64,000 bases of DNA from Haloplanus vescus. Lineage in GTDB: Archaea; Halobacteriota; Halobacteria; Halobacteriales; Haloferacaceae. Shown piece by piece: positions 8,694 through 55,806 of this stretch. The DNA is taken from positions 1 through 64,000 of the forward strand of contig NZ_FNQT01000003.1 of the NCBI RefSeq assembly GCF_900107665.1. The letters run 5' to 3'. How positions within the stretch are numbered: position 1 is the stretch's first letter; each line of letters starts with the position of its first letter. Both the position numbers and the translations under genes were made by a program. Under the pieces are notes generated by a model. That model did no database searches and was not told the DNA's origin. It worked only from the letters and a program-made list of their open reading frames with translations.

Positions 8694-8935
8694 GGTCTCT
8701 TGTCAGAGTTCACCGAAGCTGGCCAGTTAGCAGTTCCGAAGGCCACACGGGCGTCGCCGTGTGCCTAGCCGAACAGGCCGGTTTCGTCCACCCGCCGCAG
8801 GCGGAGTCCACCGAGCCAGTCAGGCCACGAAGAAGAACCCGAACTCGACTGCGGTCGCTTCGCGGGCGAACGACTCCGTCGTGGCGAGTTCGGGCGCCAT
8901 ACGCCCACAATTCGGAGCGCGAGCCAAAAGCGTTC
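8694..8935 (-). promoter_or_regulatory. pheST promoter and structured leader
   Basis: The untranslated part between the Phe-rich ORF and pheS holds several hairpins. One pairs GGCACACGG with CCGTGTGGCC (8757-8765 with 8741-8750, one bulge). A second is the 5-bp CCGCC-TGC-GGCGG stem near 8796-8808. A third ends at the pheS ATG (about 8694-8714). A copy of GAACTC (minus strand, 8706-8711) lies just before pheS and could pair with GAGTTC inside the Phe-codon region, competing with the 10-bp pairing inside the small ORF. There is no long T tract, so control at translation or by factor-dependent termination is more likely than a simple intrinsic terminator. Confidence 0.6.
8820..8900 (-). CDS. Putative Phe-rich leader peptide of pheST
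   Basis: A 26-codon ORF lies between trpS and pheS, too short for usual gene calling. Codons 20 and 22-24 are TTC (E-F-G-F-F-F-V-A end), with another Phe at codon 11. A TATA-like CGCTTTTGG at 8924-8933 is centred 28 bases upstream of the ATG, the right distance for a leaderless mRNA starting at this ATG. Its codons 3-5 and 18-21 form a perfect 10-bp inverted repeat (8885-8894 with 8838-8847), and the Phe triplet directly follows the second arm. Position and composition resemble bacterial pheST (pheM) leader peptides. That it is translated, and regulates, is inferred. Confidence 0.7.
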   Translation of the reverse strand: MAPELATTESFAREATAVEFGFFFVA

Positions 8936-47719: not shown

Positions 47720-48541
47720 ATGCGCACTGGGACGGTCTATCTCGTCGGCGCCGGTCCGGGCGACCCCGACCTGTTGACGGTCAAGGCCCGGCGCTTGCTC
47801 GACGAGGCCGACGTTGTGCTGTACGACGCGCTGGTGAGCGAGGCAGTTCGTGACCTGCCACCCGAGTCGGTCGACTGCATCGACGTGGGGAAGCGAAGCG
47901 GGGGCGAGCGGACGACGCAGGCGGAAATCAACGACCTGCTGATTCGGCGCGCCACCGCGGGCGACGACGTGGTGCGTCTCAAGAGCGGCGACCCCTGCGT
48001 GTTCGGCCGCGGGGGCGAGGAGGCCGAAGAGCTCGCCGCGGCGGGCGTCCCCTTCGAAATCGTTCCCGGGGTGACGAGCGCCATCGCCGGCCCGGGACTG
48101 GCGGGCGTGCCGCCGACTCACCGCGACCACGCCTCCAGTCTGACGGTCGTGACGGGGCACGAGGACCCCACGAAAGAAGACAGCGCCCTCGACTGGGACG
48201 CGCTGGGGCGGTCGGTCACCGCGGGTGGCACGCTCGTCATCCTGATGGGCGTCGGCCGACTCCCGGACAACGTCGACGCCCTCCGCGCGGCGGGCGTCGG
48301 CCCCGACACGCCGGTGGCGATGGTGGAACGCGCGTCCCGCGAGGACGAGTTCACGGTGACGGGGACGCTGGAGACGATAACCGAACGGGCCCGCGAAGTG
48401 GGCATCGACCCGCCCGCCGTCACCGTCGTCGGGGACGTGGTGTCGGTCCGCGACCGGGTGTCGGAGTACTTGCGCGCCGCGGGGACGGCCCGGTCCACCG
48501 GCGGGGCGATGGCCGACGACCCCGCGGTGCCGACGGAGTGA
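47720..48541 (+). CDS. cobA: Uroporphyrinogen-III C-methyltransferase (SUMT)
   Basis: SUMT adds two SAM-derived methyl groups to uroporphyrinogen III to give precorrin-2, the precursor of sirohaem. The 273 residues have the family marks VYLVGAGPGDPDLLTVKA, VVLYDALVS, VVRLKSGDPCVFGRGGEEAEEL, VPGVTSAIAGPGLAGVPPTHR and the later LVILMGVGRLPDN. It is the stand-alone enzyme, without the bacterial CysG dehydrogenase/chelatase domain. It starts directly after the small gene stop, so nirA and its cofactor enzyme are made from one operon. Substrate comes from hemC/hemD earlier in the window. Confidence 0.95.
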   Translation: MRTGTVYLVGAGPGDPDLLTVKARRLLDEADVVLYDALVSEAVRDLPPESVDCIDVGKRSGGERTTQAEINDLLIRRATAGDDVVRLKSGDPCVFGRGGEEAEELAAAGVPFEIVPGVTSAIAGPGLAGVPPTHRDHASSLTVVTGHEDPTKEDSALDWDALGRSVTAGGTLVILMGVGRLPDNVDALRAAGVGPDTPVAMVERASREDEFTVTGTLETITERAREVGIDPPAVTVVGDVVSVRDRVSEYLRAAGTARSTGGAMADDPAVPTE

Positions 48542-48587
48542 ATCGAGCCGTCAGGGACGAGACGGCCCGCGAGCGCCCCGTTCGCAA

Positions 48588-48600
48588 GATATTAGTAGCG
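48588..48600 (+). promoter_or_regulatory. Promoter of the Arg-rich leader ORF
   Basis: The AT-rich GATATTAG (48588-48595) lies in a GC-rich surrounding, centred about 29 bases before the ATG at 48621. This is the distance expected for a haloarchaeal TATA box with a leaderless transcript starting at or next to that ATG. Confidence 0.6.
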
Positions 48601-48620
48601 AGCCGCGATTTGTACCCATA

Positions 48621-48692
48621 ATGGACCGGACAGTTCCGTCCGTACACGTCCGCCTTCCCGTAGTCCGACGACTGCGACGACGGGGCCGATAG
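48621..48692 (+). CDS. Putative Arg-rich leader peptide of the arginine operon
   Basis: A 23-residue ORF upstream of argG in which eight residues are Arg, six of them in residues 16-23 (RRLRRRGR). Five of the eight codons are CGA. The start is placed at leaderless distance from GATATTAG. Its TAG stop (48690-48692) lies in the loop and 3' arm of a GC hairpin followed by a T/C-rich tract. Amino-acid content, position before the matching biosynthetic operon, and overlap with a terminator are the marks of transcription attenuation leaders in bacteria. No homologue is known to me; translation is inferred. Confidence 0.72.
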   Translation: MDRTVPSVHVRLPVVRRLRRRGR

Positions 48693-48706
48693 CCCCATCT
48701 TTCTCT
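48682..48706 (+). terminator. Putative attenuator at the end of the Arg-rich leader
   Basis: GGGGC (48682-48686) pairs with GCCCC (48692-48696) across the loop CGATA, followed by ATCTTTCTCT, a pyrimidine-rich tract with several T's. An alternative pairing exists: CCCGT (48657-48661) with ACGGG (48680-48684) would occupy the 5' arm and prevent the terminator. A ribosome halted on Arg codons 16-21 would cover this same region. About 115 further bases separate it from argG. Confidence 0.62.
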
Positions 48707-48819
48707 CACTCTCCACCCTGCGTTCGACATCAGCGACTTCCGGTGAGCGTCCCGTTTCGCATTTTATTTCAATTACAAAAACGTAGAATTTAAGTCTTTG
48801 AAGGGTCGAGAAGTCGATA
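48707..48819 (+). promoter_or_regulatory. argG proximal promoter region
   Basis: A second, AT-rich segment directly before argG contains CATTTTATTTCAATTACAAA (48758-48777) and GAATTTAAG (48786-48794), the latter about 28 bases before the argG ATG. So argG can also be read from a leaderless promoter of its own. The long A/T tract upstream may bind an activator or ArgR-like regulator, but no palindrome stands out. Confidence 0.55.
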
Positions 48820-50010
48820 ATGACACGTGTGGCACTCGCGTTCTCCGGCGGTCTCGACACCACAGTATGCGTCCCGCTGCTCGAAGACGAGTGGGGGTAC
48901 GACGAAGTCGTCGGCGTCACCGTCGACGTCGGTCAGCCCGACGCAGAGTTCGAGGAGGCAGCGGAAACGGCCGAAGCGCTCGACCTGGAGCATCACATCG
49001 TCGACGCGAAGTCGGAGTTCGCCGACCTGTGTTTCGACTCCGTGCGCGCGAACGCGACCTATCAGGGCTATCCGCTCGGCACGGCGCTCGCGCGTCCGGT
49101 CATCGCCGAAGCGATTCTCGACGTGGCCAAGGAGAACGACTGCGACGCCGTCGCCCACGGCTGTACGGGCAAGGGTAACGACCAACTTCGCTTCGAGGCC
49201 GTCTGGCGCGCGTCCGACCTCGAAGTCATCGCGCCCGTGCGCGAACTCGGCCTGACCCGCGAGTGGGAAATCGAGTACGCGGCCGAGAAGGACCTGCCCG
49301 TCGAGGGCGGCAACGAGGGCGTCTGGAGTATCGACACGAACCTCTGGAGTCGCTCCATCGAGGGCGGTGACCTCGAACAGCCGGGTCACGTCCCCGGCGA
49401 GGAAATCTACGACTGGACGCGCTCGCCCGCGGGTGACACCGAGGAGATAGAGCTCACCTTCGAGGACGGCTACCCTGTCGCCGTCGACGGCGAGGAGATG
49501 GAACCCGTCGCGCTCATCGACCACCTCAACGAGGTGGCCGGGGAGTACGGCGTCGGTCGCACGGACATGATGGAAGACCGGATGCTCGGCCTGAAGGTGC
49601 GCGAGAACTACGAGCACCCGGCGGCGACGACGCTCTTGAACGCCCACGAGACGCTGGAATCGCTCGTCCTCACCAAGGAGGAGCGCGACTTCAAGAAACT
49701 CGTGGACAACGAGTGGTCCCAGAAGGGCTACGAGGGCCTCGTCGACGCGCCGCTGATGGGCGCGCTCGAAGGCTTCATCGACGAGACACAGAGTCGCGTG
49801 ACGGGGACGGTGACGATTCGGTTCGAGGGCGGACAGGCCCGCCCGGTCGGCCGCGACAGCGAGTACGCCGTCTACGACGAGAGCTTCGCCTCCTTCAACA
49901 CCGAGGACGTGGGCGACATCACGCAGGCCGACGCGACGGGCGTCGCGAAATACCACGGTTTCCAAGAGCGCCTCGCGGCGAAGGTGCTCTCGAAGGCCAA
50001 GGAGGAGTAG
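48820..50010 (+). CDS. argG: Argininosuccinate synthase
   Basis: ArgG joins citrulline and aspartate with ATP. The 396 residues contain the P-loop-like ATP site RVALAFSGGLDTTVCVPLL, AVAHGCTGKGNDQLRFE and GREWE-type segment LTREWEIEYA; length and ends are normal. It heads the arginine operon. In many haloarchaea argG is followed by argH and the carrier-protein gene argW, but here argX begins two bases after the argG stop. Confidence 0.96.
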   Translation: MTRVALAFSGGLDTTVCVPLLEDEWGYDEVVGVTVDVGQPDAEFEEAAETAEALDLEHHIVDAKSEFADLCFDSVRANATYQGYPLGTALARPVIAEAILDVAKENDCDAVAHGCTGKGNDQLRFEAVWRASDLEVIAPVRELGLTREWEIEYAAEKDLPVEGGNEGVWSIDTNLWSRSIEGGDLEQPGHVPGEEIYDWTRSPAGDTEEIELTFEDGYPVAVDGEEMEPVALIDHLNEVAGEYGVGRTDMMEDRMLGLKVRENYEHPAATTLLNAHETLESLVLTKEERDFKKLVDNEWSQKGYEGLVDAPLMGALEGFIDETQSRVTGTVTIRFEGGQARPVGRDSEYAVYDESFASFNTEDVGDITQADATGVAKYHGFQERLAAKVLSKAKEE

Positions 50011-50012
50011 TC

Positions 50013-50867
50013 GTGCACGTAGGCCTCCTCTACTCCCGGATTCGTCGGGACGAGAAGCTCCTGCTCTCGGAGCTTCGCGAGCGCGACCACGAGGTGACGA
50101 AAATCGACGTGCGGAAAGAGCAGTTCAACATCAGCGAGGCGCCGGAGGCGTTCGACGACGTCGACATCGCCATCGACCGCTGTCTCGCCACCAGCCGAAG
50201 CAAGTACGTCACGCGCTTTCTCGACGCCTACGACGTGCCCGTCGTCAACACCGCCGACACCGCGGAGCTGTGCGCCGACAAGGTGAAAAACAGCCTCGCG
50301 CTGGAGGCGGCGGGCGTCCCGACGCCGAACACCGAGGTGGCGTTCACGACCGACAGCGCCCTCGAAACCATCGAGAAGTTCGGCTATCCCTGCGTCCTCA
50401 AGCCCGTCATCGGCTCGTGGGGACGGCTGATGGCCAAGGTGGACTCCCGGAGCGCCGCGGAAGCGATTCTGGAGCACAAGGCGACGCTCGGCCACTACGA
50501 GCACAAGGTGTTCTACGTCCAGGAGTTCGTCGAGAAACCCGGGCGTGACATCCGCGTCGTCGCCACCGACGGCGAACCCGTCGCAGGGATGACCCGCAGT
50601 TCCGACCACTGGCTCACCAACGCCGCGAAGGGCGGCGAGGTCAACGAGTTCGACATCGACGACGAGGTGGCCGAACTGGTCGAACGCGCCTCCGACGCCG
50701 TCGGCGGCGGGTTGCTCGGCATCGACCTGATGGAGACGGGCGACTCCTACACCGTCCACGAGGTGAATCACACGGTGGAGTTCAAGGCTCTCGACTCCTG
50801 TGTCGACTTCGACGTGCCCGCCGCCATCGTCGACTGGCTAGAGACGAAAGTGGAGGCCACACCATGA
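50013..50867 (+). CDS. argX: Glutamate-[amino carrier protein] ligase (ArgX/LysX family)
   Basis: The 284-residue ATP-grasp protein ligates glutamate to the C terminus of the carrier protein ArgW/LysW, the first step of carrier-protein-based arginine synthesis. Motifs include VHVGLLYSRIRRDEKLLL at the start, VLKPVIGSWGRLMAKV (ATP-grasp loop), KVFYVQEFVEKPGRDIRVV and VHEVNHTVEFK (metal ligands Glu/Asn). The start is a GTG at 50013; a longer in-frame ORF runs back into argG. The next gene overlaps its stop by four bases. The gene for its protein substrate is not in the window. Confidence 0.93.
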   Translation: MHVGLLYSRIRRDEKLLLSELRERDHEVTKIDVRKEQFNISEAPEAFDDVDIAIDRCLATSRSKYVTRFLDAYDVPVVNTADTAELCADKVKNSLALEAAGVPTPNTEVAFTTDSALETIEKFGYPCVLKPVIGSWGRLMAKVDSRSAAEAILEHKATLGHYEHKVFYVQEFVEKPGRDIRVVATDGEPVAGMTRSSDHWLTNAAKGGEVNEFDIDDEVAELVERASDAVGGGLLGIDLMETGDSYTVHEVNHTVEFKALDSCVDFDVPAAIVDWLETKVEATP

Positions 50868-51901
50868 CCTACACCGCGAGCGTCGTCGGCGCCAGCGGGT
50901 TCGCGGGCGGGGAACTCCTCCGCCTGCTGAACGGCCACCCCGAGTTCGAGGTGGCCCAAGCGACGAGTCGGAGCTACGAGCGCAAGACGGTGGGCCACCA
51001 ACACCCCAACCTCCGCTCGATGGACCTCCGCTTCAGTTCGCCGACGGACCTCGAATCCGTCGACGTGCTCTTCGCGGCGACGCCCCACGGCGTCTCGATG
51101 GAGCGCATCGACGACTTTCAGGACGCCGCCGACACCGTCGTCGACCTGAGCGCCGACTTCCGCCTCGGGAGCGAGGCCCAGTACGACGAGTGGTACGACG
51201 GCCACGACAGCCCCGAACTGCTCGACGAAGCCGAGTACGCACTCCCCGAACTCAACCGCGACAACCTCCGCGGCGCCGACCTCATCGCCTCCGGTGGCTG
51301 TAACGCGACGGCGACGATTCTGGGGCTGAAGCCCCTCTTCGACGCCGGCATCCTTTCCGGCGACGAACAGGTGGTCGTCGACGTGAAAGTGGGGTCCTCG
51401 GAGGGCGGCGCCGGCGGCGGCGCGGCCTCCTCCCATCCGGAGCGCTCGGGCATCGTCCGCCCGTACGCGCCGACGGGCCACCGCCACGAGGCCGAAATCG
51501 AGGAGTTCCTCGGGCTCTCGGTGTCTTTCACCGTCCACGCAGTCGACATGATTCGCGGCGCCGCCGCGACCTGTCACGTCTTCCCGGACAATCCGGTGGG
51601 GAAGAAAGACCTCTGGAGCGCCTACCGCGACTCCTACGACGACGAACCGTTCATGCGGACCGTCGCGGGCGGCGGTGGCGTCTATCGCTACCCCGAACCG
51701 AAGGCCGTGGCGGGCACCAACCACGGCGAAGTCGGCTTCGAACTCGACCCCGGAAACAAGCGACTGGTCGTGTTCTCGGCTATCGACAACATGATGAAAG
51801 GCTCGGCGGGACAGGCGGTCCACGCCGCGAACGTCGCCCTCGGTATCGAGGAGACGGCGGGACTGGAGTTCCAGGGTCTGCACCCGGTGGGCGCGCCATG
51901 A
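50864..51901 (+). CDS. argC: N-acyl-gamma-glutamyl-phosphate reductase (ArgC/LysY)
   Basis: The NADPH-dependent reductase of the third step makes the semialdehyde of carrier-bound glutamate. The 345 residues show the Rossmann start ASVVGASGFAGGELLRLL, VLFAATPHGVSMERI, the catalytic-Cys region IASGGCNATATILGLKPL and KVGSSEGGAGGGAASSHPERSG. The 'SEGGAGG' loop is typical of the LysY/carrier-protein type rather than classical bacterial ArgC. It is coupled by ATGA overlaps to argX before and argB after it. Confidence 0.94.
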   Translation: MTYTASVVGASGFAGGELLRLLNGHPEFEVAQATSRSYERKTVGHQHPNLRSMDLRFSSPTDLESVDVLFAATPHGVSMERIDDFQDAADTVVDLSADFRLGSEAQYDEWYDGHDSPELLDEAEYALPELNRDNLRGADLIASGGCNATATILGLKPLFDAGILSGDEQVVVDVKVGSSEGGAGGGAASSHPERSGIVRPYAPTGHRHEAEIEEFLGLSVSFTVHAVDMIRGAAATCHVFPDNPVGKKDLWSAYRDSYDDEPFMRTVAGGGGVYRYPEPKAVAGTNHGEVGFELDPGNKRLVVFSAIDNMMKGSAGQAVHAANVALGIEETAGLEFQGLHPVGAP

Positions 51902-52725
51902 CCGTCGTCGTCAAAATCGGCGGCGCGAAGGCCGTCGACCCCGCGGGCGCCGTCGCTGACATCGCCGACCTGGTTGACGAGGGCGAACCCGTCGCCGTCG
52001 TCCACGGTGGCTCCACCGCCGTCGACGACCTGTTGGACCGTCTCGGCATCGACCCGACGTACGTCGAGACGCCGGACGGCGTCGTCGGCCGGTTCACCGA
52101 CGAAGAGACGATGGAGGCGTTCACGATGGCGATGGCGGGGACGGTGAACACCGACCTCGTGGCGACGTTCCGCGAGGCGGGCGTCGACGCCGTCGGTCTC
52201 TCGGGCGTCGACGGTGGCCTCATCACCGGCCCGCGGAAGTCCGCGGTCCGGGTGGTCGAGGACGGCAAGAAGAAGATCAAGCGCGGCGATCACTCCGGCA
52301 AAATTGAGTCGGTGAACGCCGAGCTGCTGGAGACGCTGCTGGCGGACGGCTACACGCCCGTCGCCGGCCCGCCGATGCTCGCCGACGACGGCGTCCCGGT
52401 CAACACGGACGCGGACCGTGCGGCGGCGGCCGTCGCGGGCGCCCTCGGTGCGACGCTGGTCGTCCTGACCGACGTGTCGGGCGTCTACGCCGACCCCGAC
52501 GACCCCGAGACGCTCATCGAATCGGTTCGCACGCCCGCGGAGTACGACGCCCTCACCGACGCGGCGGAAGGGTTCATGACGAAGAAGGTGATGGCCGCGA
52601 CGGAGGCACTCGAACGCGGCGCGAGCGAAGTCGTCGTCGCCGACGCCAACGCGGACGCGCCGGTGACGGCAGCACTGGGCGAAAGCGGTACACACATTCA
52701 TCCGAGCGCACTGGAGGACACATGA
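51898..52725 (+). CDS. argB: Acetylglutamate / carrier-bound glutamate kinase (ArgB/LysZ)
   Basis: The amino-acid kinase phosphorylates the side-chain carboxyl of carrier-bound glutamate. The 275 residues contain VVVKIGGAKAVDPAGA and AVVHGGSTAVDDLLDRLG (N-terminal substrate and ATP loops), GLSGVDGGLITGPRKSAVRV and VLTDVSGVYADPDDPETLI. The usual Lys of the KIGG motif is present. It overlaps argC and argD by four bases each (ATGA), so the whole set is translated in tight coupling. Confidence 0.94.
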   Translation: MTVVVKIGGAKAVDPAGAVADIADLVDEGEPVAVVHGGSTAVDDLLDRLGIDPTYVETPDGVVGRFTDEETMEAFTMAMAGTVNTDLVATFREAGVDAVGLSGVDGGLITGPRKSAVRVVEDGKKKIKRGDHSGKIESVNAELLETLLADGYTPVAGPPMLADDGVPVNTDADRAAAAVAGALGATLVVLTDVSGVYADPDDPETLIESVRTPAEYDALTDAAEGFMTKKVMAATEALERGASEVVVADANADAPVTAALGESGTHIHPSALEDT

Positions 52726-53846
52726 GCGGCTTCGTCTTCTCCGAGAAACCCATCGGCATCGAACGCGGCGAGGGGGCGTACCTCTACGCCGACGACGGCA
52801 CCGAGTATCTGGACTTCGGCGCGAGTTACGCCGTCACGCCCGTCGGCCACAGCCACCCCGACGTGGTCGACGCCGTGAAATCCCAGGCCGAGGACCTGAT
52901 GTACGTGCAGGCATCGTACCCCGTCGCCGAGCGGACGGAGCTGTACGAGAAACTGGCGACGGTGTCGCCGCCGGGGCTGGACAACGTCTGGCTGTGTAAC
53001 TCGGGGACCGAAGCCAACGAGGCGGCGATGAAGTTCGCCCGCAACGCCACGGGGCGGTCGAAAATCGTCGCCACGCGCCGCGGCTTCCACGGGCGCACGT
53101 TCGGCGCCCTCTCGATGACCTGGAAGGACAAGTACAAGAAGCCGTTCGAGCCGCTGCTCGACGACATCGAGTTCGTCTCCTACGGCGACGGCGACGAACT
53201 CGCCGAGGTAGTCGACGACGAGACGGCGGCCGTCTTCCTCGAACCCATCCAGGGCGAGGGTGGCATCCACCCCGCCGACACCGCGTACCTCCAGCAGGCA
53301 CGCGAACTCACCGAGGAGGCGGGCGCGGCGCTCGTCTTCGACGAGATTCAGACCGGGATGGGGCGGACGGGGACGCTCTGGGCGTGTGAGCACGCCGGCG
53401 TCGACCCCGACATCCTCACGACGGCGAAAGGCGTCGCCAGCGGCCTGCCACTCGGCGCGACGGTGTGTGCCGACTGGATTGCCGACGCCGACCCCGAGCA
53501 CGGGTCGACGTTCAGTGGCGGGCCCGTCGTCTGCGCGGCGGCCAACGCGACGCTCGACTTGCTGGTCGAGGAAGACATCCCAGCCCACGCCGCCGAGATG
53601 GGCGACTACCTCGTGGACGAAATCGAAGCGACGGACCTGCCCGTCCGCGACGTTCGCGGGCGGGGGCTGATGGTCGGCATCGAGGTGAAGCGGGGGGCGA
53701 ACCGCCTACTCCGTGACCTCGCCCTCGAAGAGCAGGTGTTGGCGCTGCCGGCCGGGCGGACCGTCCTCCGCCTGTTGCCGCCGCTGACCATCGACGAGAG
53801 TCACGCCGACGAGTTCGTGGCGTCGCTGGAGGCGGTACTGGAATGA
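52722..53846 (+). CDS. argD: Acetylornithine / [carrier]-ornithine aminotransferase
   Basis: A class III PLP aminotransferase that transfers an amino group from glutamate to the carrier-bound semialdehyde, giving carrier-bound ornithine. The 374 residues have the PLP-phosphate loop NSGTEANEAAMKFARNATGRSKIV, the PLP aspartate in LVFDEIQTGMGRTG and the Schiff-base lysine in LTTAKGVASGLPLGA. The C-terminal LRLLPPLTIDESHADEF is normal. It starts inside the argB stop and is followed by argE with a four-base overlap. Confidence 0.95.
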   Translation: MSGFVFSEKPIGIERGEGAYLYADDGTEYLDFGASYAVTPVGHSHPDVVDAVKSQAEDLMYVQASYPVAERTELYEKLATVSPPGLDNVWLCNSGTEANEAAMKFARNATGRSKIVATRRGFHGRTFGALSMTWKDKYKKPFEPLLDDIEFVSYGDGDELAEVVDDETAAVFLEPIQGEGGIHPADTAYLQQARELTEEAGAALVFDEIQTGMGRTGTLWACEHAGVDPDILTTAKGVASGLPLGATVCADWIADADPEHGSTFSGGPVVCAAANATLDLLVEEDIPAHAAEMGDYLVDEIEATDLPVRDVRGRGLMVGIEVKRGANRLLRDLALEEQVLALPAGRTVLRLLPPLTIDESHADEFVASLEAVLE

Positions 53847-54913
53847 CCGCGGGCGAACACGAGATTCAGGAGCCGGACGTGGCGCTGACCGAGAGCCAGC
53901 GACTGCTGTTCGACCTCGTCTCCATCCCCTCGCCGTCGGGCGAGGAGGAGGCGGCCGCGGAACGGCTCGTCGACTTCTTCGAATCTCACGACCGCGAGGT
54001 GTGGACCGACGAGGTGGGGAACGTCCACGCGCCCGCGGACGACTCGGTGCTCCTGACCTCGCACATCGACACCGTGCCGGGCGACATCCCGGTCGAGATT
54101 CGGGAGGAAGACGGCGAGCGGAGCCTATGGGGTCGCGGGAGCGTCGACGCGACGGGCCCATTGGCGGCGATGGCCGTCGCCGCCGTCGAGACGGGCACGA
54201 GCTTCATCGGCGTCGTCGGCGAGGAAGTCGACTCCCGCGGGTCGCGACACGTCATCGAGAGCGACCGGCCGGAACCCGACGCCCTCATCAACGGCGAACC
54301 CAGCGGGTGGACGGGCATCACGCTCGGCTACCGCGGCTTGCTCGCGGGGACGTACGTCGCCACCAGCGAGTCGGGGCACACCTCCCGCCCGGAGAACAAC
54401 GCGATTCAGGACGCGATGGACTGGTGGGAGCGGGTCGAAGAGGAGTTCGACCCCGACGAGTACCTCCCGGTCTTCGAGCGCGTCACCTGCAAGCCCACGT
54501 CGTTCGAGGGCGGCACCAGCGTCGACGGCCTCTCCGTCGAGGCGACGATGGAAGTACAGTTCCGCGTGCCGCCGGAGTACACCGTCGACGACGTGCGCGA
54601 GATGGCGGACGGCCGCCTGGAAACGGGGACCGTCCACTGGTACGACCGCGTGCCGCCGGTGATGGAGAGCCCGCGGACGAACATCGCGCGGGCGTTTCGC
54701 GCCGCCGTCCGGAACGCCGGCGGCGACCCGCGTCTCCTCCGCAAGACCGGCACCGCCGACATGAACGTCTTCGCGTCCGCCTGGGACTGCCCGATGGTGA
54801 CGTACGGGCCCGGCGACTCCGACTTGGACCACGCGCCGAACGAGCACCTCGCACTCGACGAGTACGACCAGTCTATCGAGGTGTTGATCGACGCCTGCGA
54901 ACGCCTACGATGA
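53843..54913 (+). CDS. argE: Carrier-protein-ornithine hydrolase (ArgE/LysK family)
   Basis: An M20-family metallopeptidase that releases ornithine from the carrier protein. The 356 residues have the metal-binding segments LTSHIDTVPGDIPV, LWGRGSVDATGPLAAM, VGEEVDSRGSRHVIE and the C-terminal TGTADMNVFASAWDCPMVTYGPGDSDLDHAPNE region. The EE pair supplies the catalytic base. The start is the ATG overlapping the argD stop; the stop overlaps argF (ATGA). Confidence 0.93.
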   Translation: MTAGEHEIQEPDVALTESQRLLFDLVSIPSPSGEEEAAAERLVDFFESHDREVWTDEVGNVHAPADDSVLLTSHIDTVPGDIPVEIREEDGERSLWGRGSVDATGPLAAMAVAAVETGTSFIGVVGEEVDSRGSRHVIESDRPEPDALINGEPSGWTGITLGYRGLLAGTYVATSESGHTSRPENNAIQDAMDWWERVEEEFDPDEYLPVFERVTCKPTSFEGGTSVDGLSVEATMEVQFRVPPEYTVDDVREMADGRLETGTVHWYDRVPPVMESPRTNIARAFRAAVRNAGGDPRLLRKTGTADMNVFASAWDCPMVTYGPGDSDLDHAPNEHLALDEYDQSIEVLIDACERLR

Positions 54914-55806
54914 TAGAACCCACCCACATCCTCGACGTTGACGACCTCACGGCCGAGGACCTGACCACGGTGTTGGATCGTGCGGCCGCCATCAAGGCGG
55001 GCGAGGACCAGACGGACCTCGACCGACAGACGCTCGCGATGGTGTTCGAGAAGCCGAGCACGCGCACCCGAACGTCCTTCGAGACGGCGATGACGCGTCT
55101 CGGCGGTCACGCCATCTTCCTCGGCCCGGACGATATCCACCTCGGCCGAGGCGAACCAGTGAAAGACACCGCCCGCGCCCTCGCGGGCTACACCGACGCC
55201 ATCATGGCGCGTCTGTTCGACCACGCCGACGCCGAGGAACTCGCGGAGTACTCGGACGTCCCCGTCATCAACGGGTTGACCGACGACGCCCACCCCTGCC
55301 AGACGCTCGCGGACCTGCTGACGATTCGCGAGCGATTCGGCGGTTTCGACGACGTGACCGTCGCGTGGGTCGGCGACGGCAACAACGTCGCGCAGTCGTT
55401 CGTGTTGGGGGCGGCGCTCGCCGACCTCGACGTCGTAGTGTCGACGCCGCCCGAGTACGGCCTCGACGACGACGTACTCGACCGGGCGGCGGAGCTGGGT
55501 GGGACTCCCGAACTCGTCGACGACCCCGCCGACGCCGTCGAGGGCGCGGACGTGGTCTACACCGACGTGTGGGTGTCGATGGGCGAAGAAGACGAACGCG
55601 AGGAGAAACTCGCGGCGTTCGAGGGGTTCCAACTGAACGCCGACCTCCTCGCCGGCAGCGACGCCGAGGTGATGCACTGCCTGCCCGCCCACCGCGGGGA
55701 GGAAATCACCGACGAAGTCGTCGAGAGCGAGCGTTCTATCGTCTGGCAACAAGCAGAGAACCGCCTGCACGCGCAGGCCGGCCTGCTGGTCGAACTGCTC
55801 GCGTAA
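54910..55806 (+). CDS. argF: Ornithine carbamoyltransferase
   Basis: ArgF makes citrulline from ornithine and carbamoyl phosphate. The 298 residues contain the carbamoyl-phosphate motif EKPSTRTRTSFE, the HPCQTLAD segment, VGDGNNVAQSF and the ornithine loop VMHCLPAHRGEEI. The start at 54910 overlaps argE by four bases; a longer in-frame ORF through argE is not real. It closes the operon, so the pathway from glutamate to citrulline, plus ArgG, is present except for the carrier protein ArgW. ArgH, for the last step, is also absent. Confidence 0.96.
   Translation: MIEPTHILDVDDLTAEDLTTVLDRAAAIKAGEDQTDLDRQTLAMVFEKPSTRTRTSFETAMTRLGGHAIFLGPDDIHLGRGEPVKDTARALAGYTDAIMARLFDHADAEELAEYSDVPVINGLTDDAHPCQTLADLLTIRERFGGFDDVTVAWVGDGNNVAQSFVLGAALADLDVVVSTPPEYGLDDDVLDRAAELGGTPELVDDPADAVEGADVVYTDVWVSMGEEDEREEKLAAFEGFQLNADLLAGSDAEVMHCLPAHRGEEITDEVVESERSIVWQQAENRLHAQAGLLVELLA

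Follow-up and report, generated by a model that had tools for sequence, protein, structure and literature searches.

Does an archaeal arginine operon carry, ahead of its first gene, an attenuator in which a ribosome translating a short leader peptide senses the supply of arginine? The question is raised by the 278-nt intergenic region between cobA and argG in Haloplanus vescus, which lies within the 64,000-nt stretch of DNA analyzed here (the window; contig NZ_FNQT01000003.1, positions 1 to 64,000). The first gene of the operon, argG (argininosuccinate synthase; 48820..50010, forward strand), was assigned from its ORF and from relatives found by search. It is followed on the same strand by argX-argC-argB-argD-argE-argF (50007..55806), ORFs whose order was compared with that at loci L003, L018, L029 and L063. 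In other genera argH and argW lie between argG and argX; neither is present there in the window. The best matches to the window are genomes of the same genus, and Haloplanus ruber is the nearest named relative.

An earlier note had described a TATA-like box, a 23-codon Arg-rich ORF and a hairpin around its stop codon in this region, and all three are found where it had placed them. The TATA-like box GATATTAG (48588..48595, forward strand) is the core of P1, the promoter predicted for a leader transcript. It lies inside the block GTTCGCAAGATATTAGTA, which is nearly unchanged, and at a fixed distance from the ATG, in an alignment of 12 Haloplanus genomes. The ORF, for which the name argL is proposed, translates as MDRTVPSVHVRLPVVRRLRRRGR (48621..48692, forward strand, stop codon included). 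It runs from an ATG at 48621 to a TAG at 48690-48692, has eight Arg among its 23 codons, ends in RRLRRRGR, and encodes a peptide with a calculated pI of 12. A search of Rfam with positions 48400-49000 returned no match to a T-box or other known regulator at E values up to 1.

The frame of argL is open in all 12 Haloplanus genomes, and every indel within it is a multiple of three. All 12 also keep the Arg cluster at the C-terminus and the hairpin at the stop codon. Variation is spread over the codon positions without a third-position bias (10, 15 and 11 of 27 columns are variable at the first, second and third positions, respectively), and the N-terminal part of the peptide does not look as if selection had acted on it as a protein. 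Over the last ten codons, first positions are invariant, as Arg (CGN) requires.

The earlier note had staked its case on conservation of the ORF, its Arg codons and the hairpin in relatives, and this conservation extends well beyond the genus. A joint pattern of at least three Arg in the last 12 residues and a stop codon inside a GC hairpin of at least 5 bp is present in 62 of 78 named haloarchaeal argG upstream regions. Among controls, it was found in 7 of the 78 reverse complements, in 13 of 780 sequences shuffled by dinucleotide, and in 11 of 680 windows drawn at random from these loci. When an ATG and a TATA-like box were also required, 53 of the 78 regions qualified, against no reverse complement, one shuffle and no random window. 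A larger set of 168 argG loci (59 genera, 7 families), which includes the 12 Haloplanus and some genomes shared with the named set, yielded 122 leaders under strict and 135 under slightly relaxed rules, the latter covering 51 of the 59 genera; here the best ORF per locus was scored without a shuffle control of its own, so that 62 of 78 is the controlled figure. The TATA-like box is 31-34 nt ahead of the leader ATG in 128 of the 135 leaders. Given this spacing, the transcript is predicted to be leaderless. Start, frame, Arg codons and hairpin are kept across leaders and the remaining peptide drifts, which fits an arginine sensor rather than a protein. It is reasonable to suggest that the arginine leader is widespread in haloarchaea and probably ancestral to them. 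Among further DNA matches, L112 and L117 proved to be argG leaders from other genera, while the weak matches L113-L115, with no argG in the vicinity, were taken to be coincidences.

A leader ORF with a cluster of cognate codons is a mark of ribosome-mediated attenuators, and the 135 leaders have such a cluster of Arg codons. In the window the candidate control codons are CGA CGA CTG CGA CGA CGG (48666..48683, forward strand), directly adjoining the hairpin. Within the last 12 codons of the leaders, 67.5% of the Arg codons are CGA, compared to 1.7% in the argG genes of relatives and 9.9% for nine window genes. The position of the cluster is also constrained; in 131 of 135 leaders the last Arg codon before the hairpin starts at a distance of 4-5 nt from it. 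Rare control codons are what a sensor predicts, although constraints on RNA structure could also favor CGA.

The hairpin, H1 (48682..48696, forward strand), has the form GGGGC-CGATA-GCCCC, with arms at 48682-48686 and 48692-48696, and the stop codon spans the loop and the right arm. Its five pairs are retained in each of the 12 Haloplanus genomes in one of two registers. Relative to the first base of the stop codon, H1 extends across leaders from 6-11 nt upstream to 5-9 nt downstream. The stems are compensatory between clades (GGGCC/GGCCC, GGCCC/GGGCC, GGGGC/GCCCC, GGGTC/GACCC and CGGGC/GCCCG). H1 folds better than shuffled sequences in every family, with mean z-scores of -2.2 and -2.6 in two clade groups; the sequences behind these and the following z-scores are related, not independent, and the scores are trends rather than probabilities. 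Most families also give support to a hairpin in the leader's first half (overall z -1.5), which was not detectable in Haloplanus (z -0.07).

The logic of the bacterial trp operon cannot be transferred to H1. The stop codon lies inside it, and the pyrimidine-rich tract that follows (48697..48714, forward strand) has no T-run; the T fraction in the next 15 nt is 0.30-0.32 in all clades. H1 is thus not a terminator of the bacterial type, and no hairpin plus T-run resembling an intrinsic terminator follows the leader. The competing pairing proposed in the earlier note, CCCGT at 48657-48661 with ACGGG at 48680-48684, is intact (5 of 5 pairs) only in H. vescus; the number of pairs kept in the other 11 Haloplanus ranges from 0 to 4. 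Of the bacterial layout that the note had recognized, the conserved leaderless Arg leader before the arginine operon therefore stands, whereas the competing pairing and a terminator of the bacterial type do not. Pairing of the right arm of H1 with downstream RNA gave no signal (mean z -0.05), and no mutually exclusive terminator and antiterminator pair proved common to all clades. A hairpin between the Arg codons and upstream sequence (48659-48676) was considered and rejected, being fully intact in 6 of 12 Haloplanus and not significant across families.

The whole window was scanned for short ORFs with a TATA-like box, an ATG and at least four identical residues in the last 12. Five matches were obtained, including argL and a Phe-rich leaderless leader, MAPELATTESFAREATAVEFGFFFVA (8820..8900, reverse strand), which ends in EFGFFFVA and lies 207 nt ahead of pheS (start about 8693). 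Of 39 haloarchaeal genomes, 29 have a Phe-rich leader in front of pheS (31 by a looser count), compared to 18 of 624 control windows, and its C-terminus is typically GFGFFFA. No second promoter box was seen at pheS. Similarly, a leader with Trp-x-Trp precedes a second trpS at 7 of 9 loci, compared to 23 of 270 control windows. The Trp leaders (L350, L351, L352, L353, L354, L355 and L357) carry motifs such as CWRWHAS, PWRWWS and RWRWRS; the loop that holds their Trp codons is closed by a variable stem, for example GTCCGCTCC/GGGAGCGGAC, and a conserved GCTCACTCGC-like motif follows. No leaders were found in front of ilvB and trpC of Haloplanus. The match between leader residue and downstream gene, arising independently for Arg with the arginine operon, Phe with pheS and Trp with the second trpS, supports sensing by codons.

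Based on these results, argL and its hairpin probably constitute an arginine-sensing leader-peptide attenuator of the arginine operon. The sequence evidence consists of conservation, cognate codons, codon bias, covariation of the hairpin and, in several families, the lack of any other promoter; from it we infer stalling, masking and the direction and level of control. The leaderless mRNA would begin at the leader ATG, so that the first ribosome would load immediately behind RNA polymerase. When charged Arg-tRNA is scarce, especially that reading CGA, this ribosome would stall on the Arg cluster abutting H1 and mask the 5' side of the hairpin. With plentiful arginine the ribosome would finish and leave, allowing the structures to form, and argG would be reached by less RNA polymerase or by fewer ribosomes. 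Sensing of arginine by the pioneer ribosome is well supported by comparison of the leaders. The output step is the least certain part of the scheme, and we infer that premature termination is the favored form of it.

The output has to be considered against two architectures of the region between leader and argG. A TATA-like box is present there in 53 of 55 loci classed as P2-bearing, the window included, and in 1 of the other 80, so that 79 of the 80 P2-less loci have no promoter between the leader and the structural genes. Type I comprises family f1 (Haloplanus and Haloferax), f7, f14 and part of f17, with a T-rich block and the second promoter, P2, whose TATA-like box is some 31 nt ahead of the argG ATG, and type II comprises f4, f5, f12 and Halorussus, in which argG is preceded by C+A-rich sequence (0.78 C+A); both types were assigned after the P2 data were seen. 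In type II no promoter other than that of the leader is apparent, and the leader is therefore predicted to lie in the 5' UTR of argG. In these clades, pairing between the Arg codons and RNA downstream clearly exceeds that in shuffled sequences (z -1.9 in f4 and -2.25 in f12, again as trends), as in the Natronomonas example of GGCGACCGCGAC with GTCGCGCTCGCC, in which some pairs vary. A stalled ribosome would here mask, in addition to H1, this helix between the Arg codons and a segment that lies some 25-55 nt beyond the stop codon. No such advantage over shuffles was seen in f1 (z -0.15) or f7 (z -0.23), and in Haloplanus the helix was not detectable (z 0.33). In Natronomonas loci L063, L075 and L049, a second conserved hairpin, ACCGTCCGGTTGACGGT, lies ahead of the C+A-rich stretch before the argG start.

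The type II architecture could also accommodate translational control, in which the leader, as the 5' UTR of argG, senses arginine and the switch acts on the access of ribosomes to argG. The C+A-rich stretch before the argG ATG and the absence of a Shine-Dalgarno sequence at argG in P2-less clades (0 of 104) are consistent with such a switch, as is the general lack of a T-run terminator between leader and argG (a T-rich block in 8 of 80 P2-less loci). However, the conserved structures lie about 25-60 nt past the stop codon with no visible overlap with the argG start, and in clades with P2, argG is expected to be translated from a leaderless mRNA that does not include the leader. Translational control is unlikely to be the main output.

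In Haloplanus, P2 (GAATTTAAG; 48786..48794, forward strand) is a conserved TATA-like core at a fixed distance in all 12 genomes and the predicted leaderless promoter of argG itself; it does not figure in the earlier note. P2 could drive argG independently of the leader; with P2 at argG, the leader in Haloplanus can contribute no more than one of two inputs. Upstream of it is the T-rich block TTTTATTTC (48762..48770, forward strand), which may terminate the leader transcript or belong to a P2 operator. At least six T in 9 nt are found at 49 of 55 P2-bearing loci. Several P2-bearing genera also have an inverted repeat, TTTC-N8-GAAA, upstream of P2 (48762-48785 in the window) at a near-constant distance from the TATA-like box; it resembles an operator.

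This arrangement suggests another output for the P2-bearing clades, in which the P1 transcript would either end at the T-rich block or read through and occlude P2, depending on where the ribosome sits. P2 and the TTTTATTTC block do co-occur, and the block resembles the intergenic terminators of Haloferax, T-stretches ending in TC that are 95% efficient in a reporter (PMC7237163); in the same reporter test, one hairpin alone terminated 59% of transcripts. Membership of the block in a P2 operator is equally possible, and its near-constant distance from P2 could instead mark a regulator site. Furthermore, the leader is conserved equally where P2 is absent. Occlusion of P2 is quite improbable, and premature termination remains the favored output of the argL attenuator. 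The value of arginine control in Haloplanus is itself questionable, since a haloarchaeal-type argH was not found, at the threshold used, in 11 of 12 genomes. The only haloarchaeal-type argH among the twelve is a divergent copy with 41% identity in genome G002. Haloplanus spp. that lack argH may be arginine auxotrophs or use another lyase.

The remaining explanations concern what argL is rather than what it controls. It might encode an arrest peptide, whose nascent chain stalls the ribosome in response to free arginine as the fungal arginine attenuator peptide does; the fixed position of the stop codon within the hairpin and the Arg-rich C-terminus could be read in this way. The fungal peptide needs a conserved arrest sequence, however, whereas haloarchaeal leaders vary freely in sequence and length outside the Arg clusters. 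As the cognate Phe and Trp leaders also favor codon sensing, an arrest peptide is very improbable. The conservation of start, frame and stop might point to a functional small basic protein, a reading with next to no likelihood given that third-position bias is missing and that the conserved residues coincide with the Arg codons and the hairpin arm. Although spurious Arg-rich frames are common in the Haloplanus genome of the window, a chance frame in GC-rich DNA combined with a 3' hairpin of cobA is ruled out for practical purposes by composition-preserving controls (below 2%) and by a pattern that tracks argG over 7 families.

Like the bacterial trpL, hisL, leuL and ilvL attenuators, argL is a short ORF with clustered cognate codons before the cognate operon and has RNA structures beside the control codons. 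Unlike these attenuators, argL is archaeal and leaderless, its stop codon lies in a conserved hairpin with no T-run after it, argG has a second promoter in some clades, and no universal antiterminator pairing was found. The E. coli pheM-pheST attenuator likewise has a Phe-rich leader before pheS, with a peptide sequence unrelated to that of the haloarchaeal Phe leader. The latter differs in being leaderless, and no terminator was identified for it. In Streptomyces an auxiliary trpS is controlled by an attenuator with a Trp-rich leader, like the haloarchaeal Trp leader before the second trpS; no homology is claimed.

The Phe and Trp leaders have probably been seen before in another guise. In the parts of the H. 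volcanii transcription start site study drawn on here (Babski et al. 2016, PMC4983044), experimentally mapped start sites place a 26-aa uORF before pheS, with no second start site, and a 23-aa uORF before a trpS. The Phe leader of Haloferax denitrificans (26 aa) has a pI of 5.94, compared to 5.9 in the portion of the published table used (PMC4983044), and the Trp leader of Haloferax prahovense (23 aa) has a pI of 5.43, compared to 5.4. The masses differ (2792 versus 2772 for Phe, 2625 versus 2743 for Trp), and the published uORFs appear to be the Phe and Trp leaders in related, not identical, sequences. Those same parts of the study list only uORFs of low pI and not argG (the pI of argL is 12), and do not discuss cognate amino-acid content or attenuation. 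The primary transcriptome paper of another archaeon noted no direct experimental support for attenuators or riboswitches in vivo in archaea at its date (PMC4247193). An archaeal leader-peptide attenuator was not found in the open literature searched; subscription journals lie mostly outside that literature, and a prior description is possible.

Finally, we lean towards the broader view that haloarchaea have a general class of independently evolved leaderless leader-peptide attenuators (Arg with the arginine operon, Phe with pheS and Trp with the second trpS), in which the pioneer ribosome senses charged tRNA. The proposal is directly testable, as cognate leaders for three amino acids are found in genetically tractable hosts such as Haloferax. 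If correct, these would be the first such class of attenuators in archaea, working without terminators of the bacterial type, and leader-peptide attenuation would have arisen or persisted outside bacteria. Leaderless initiation would tie the first ribosome to RNA polymerase, and the leaders would provide a natural probe of transcription-translation coupling and termination in archaea.
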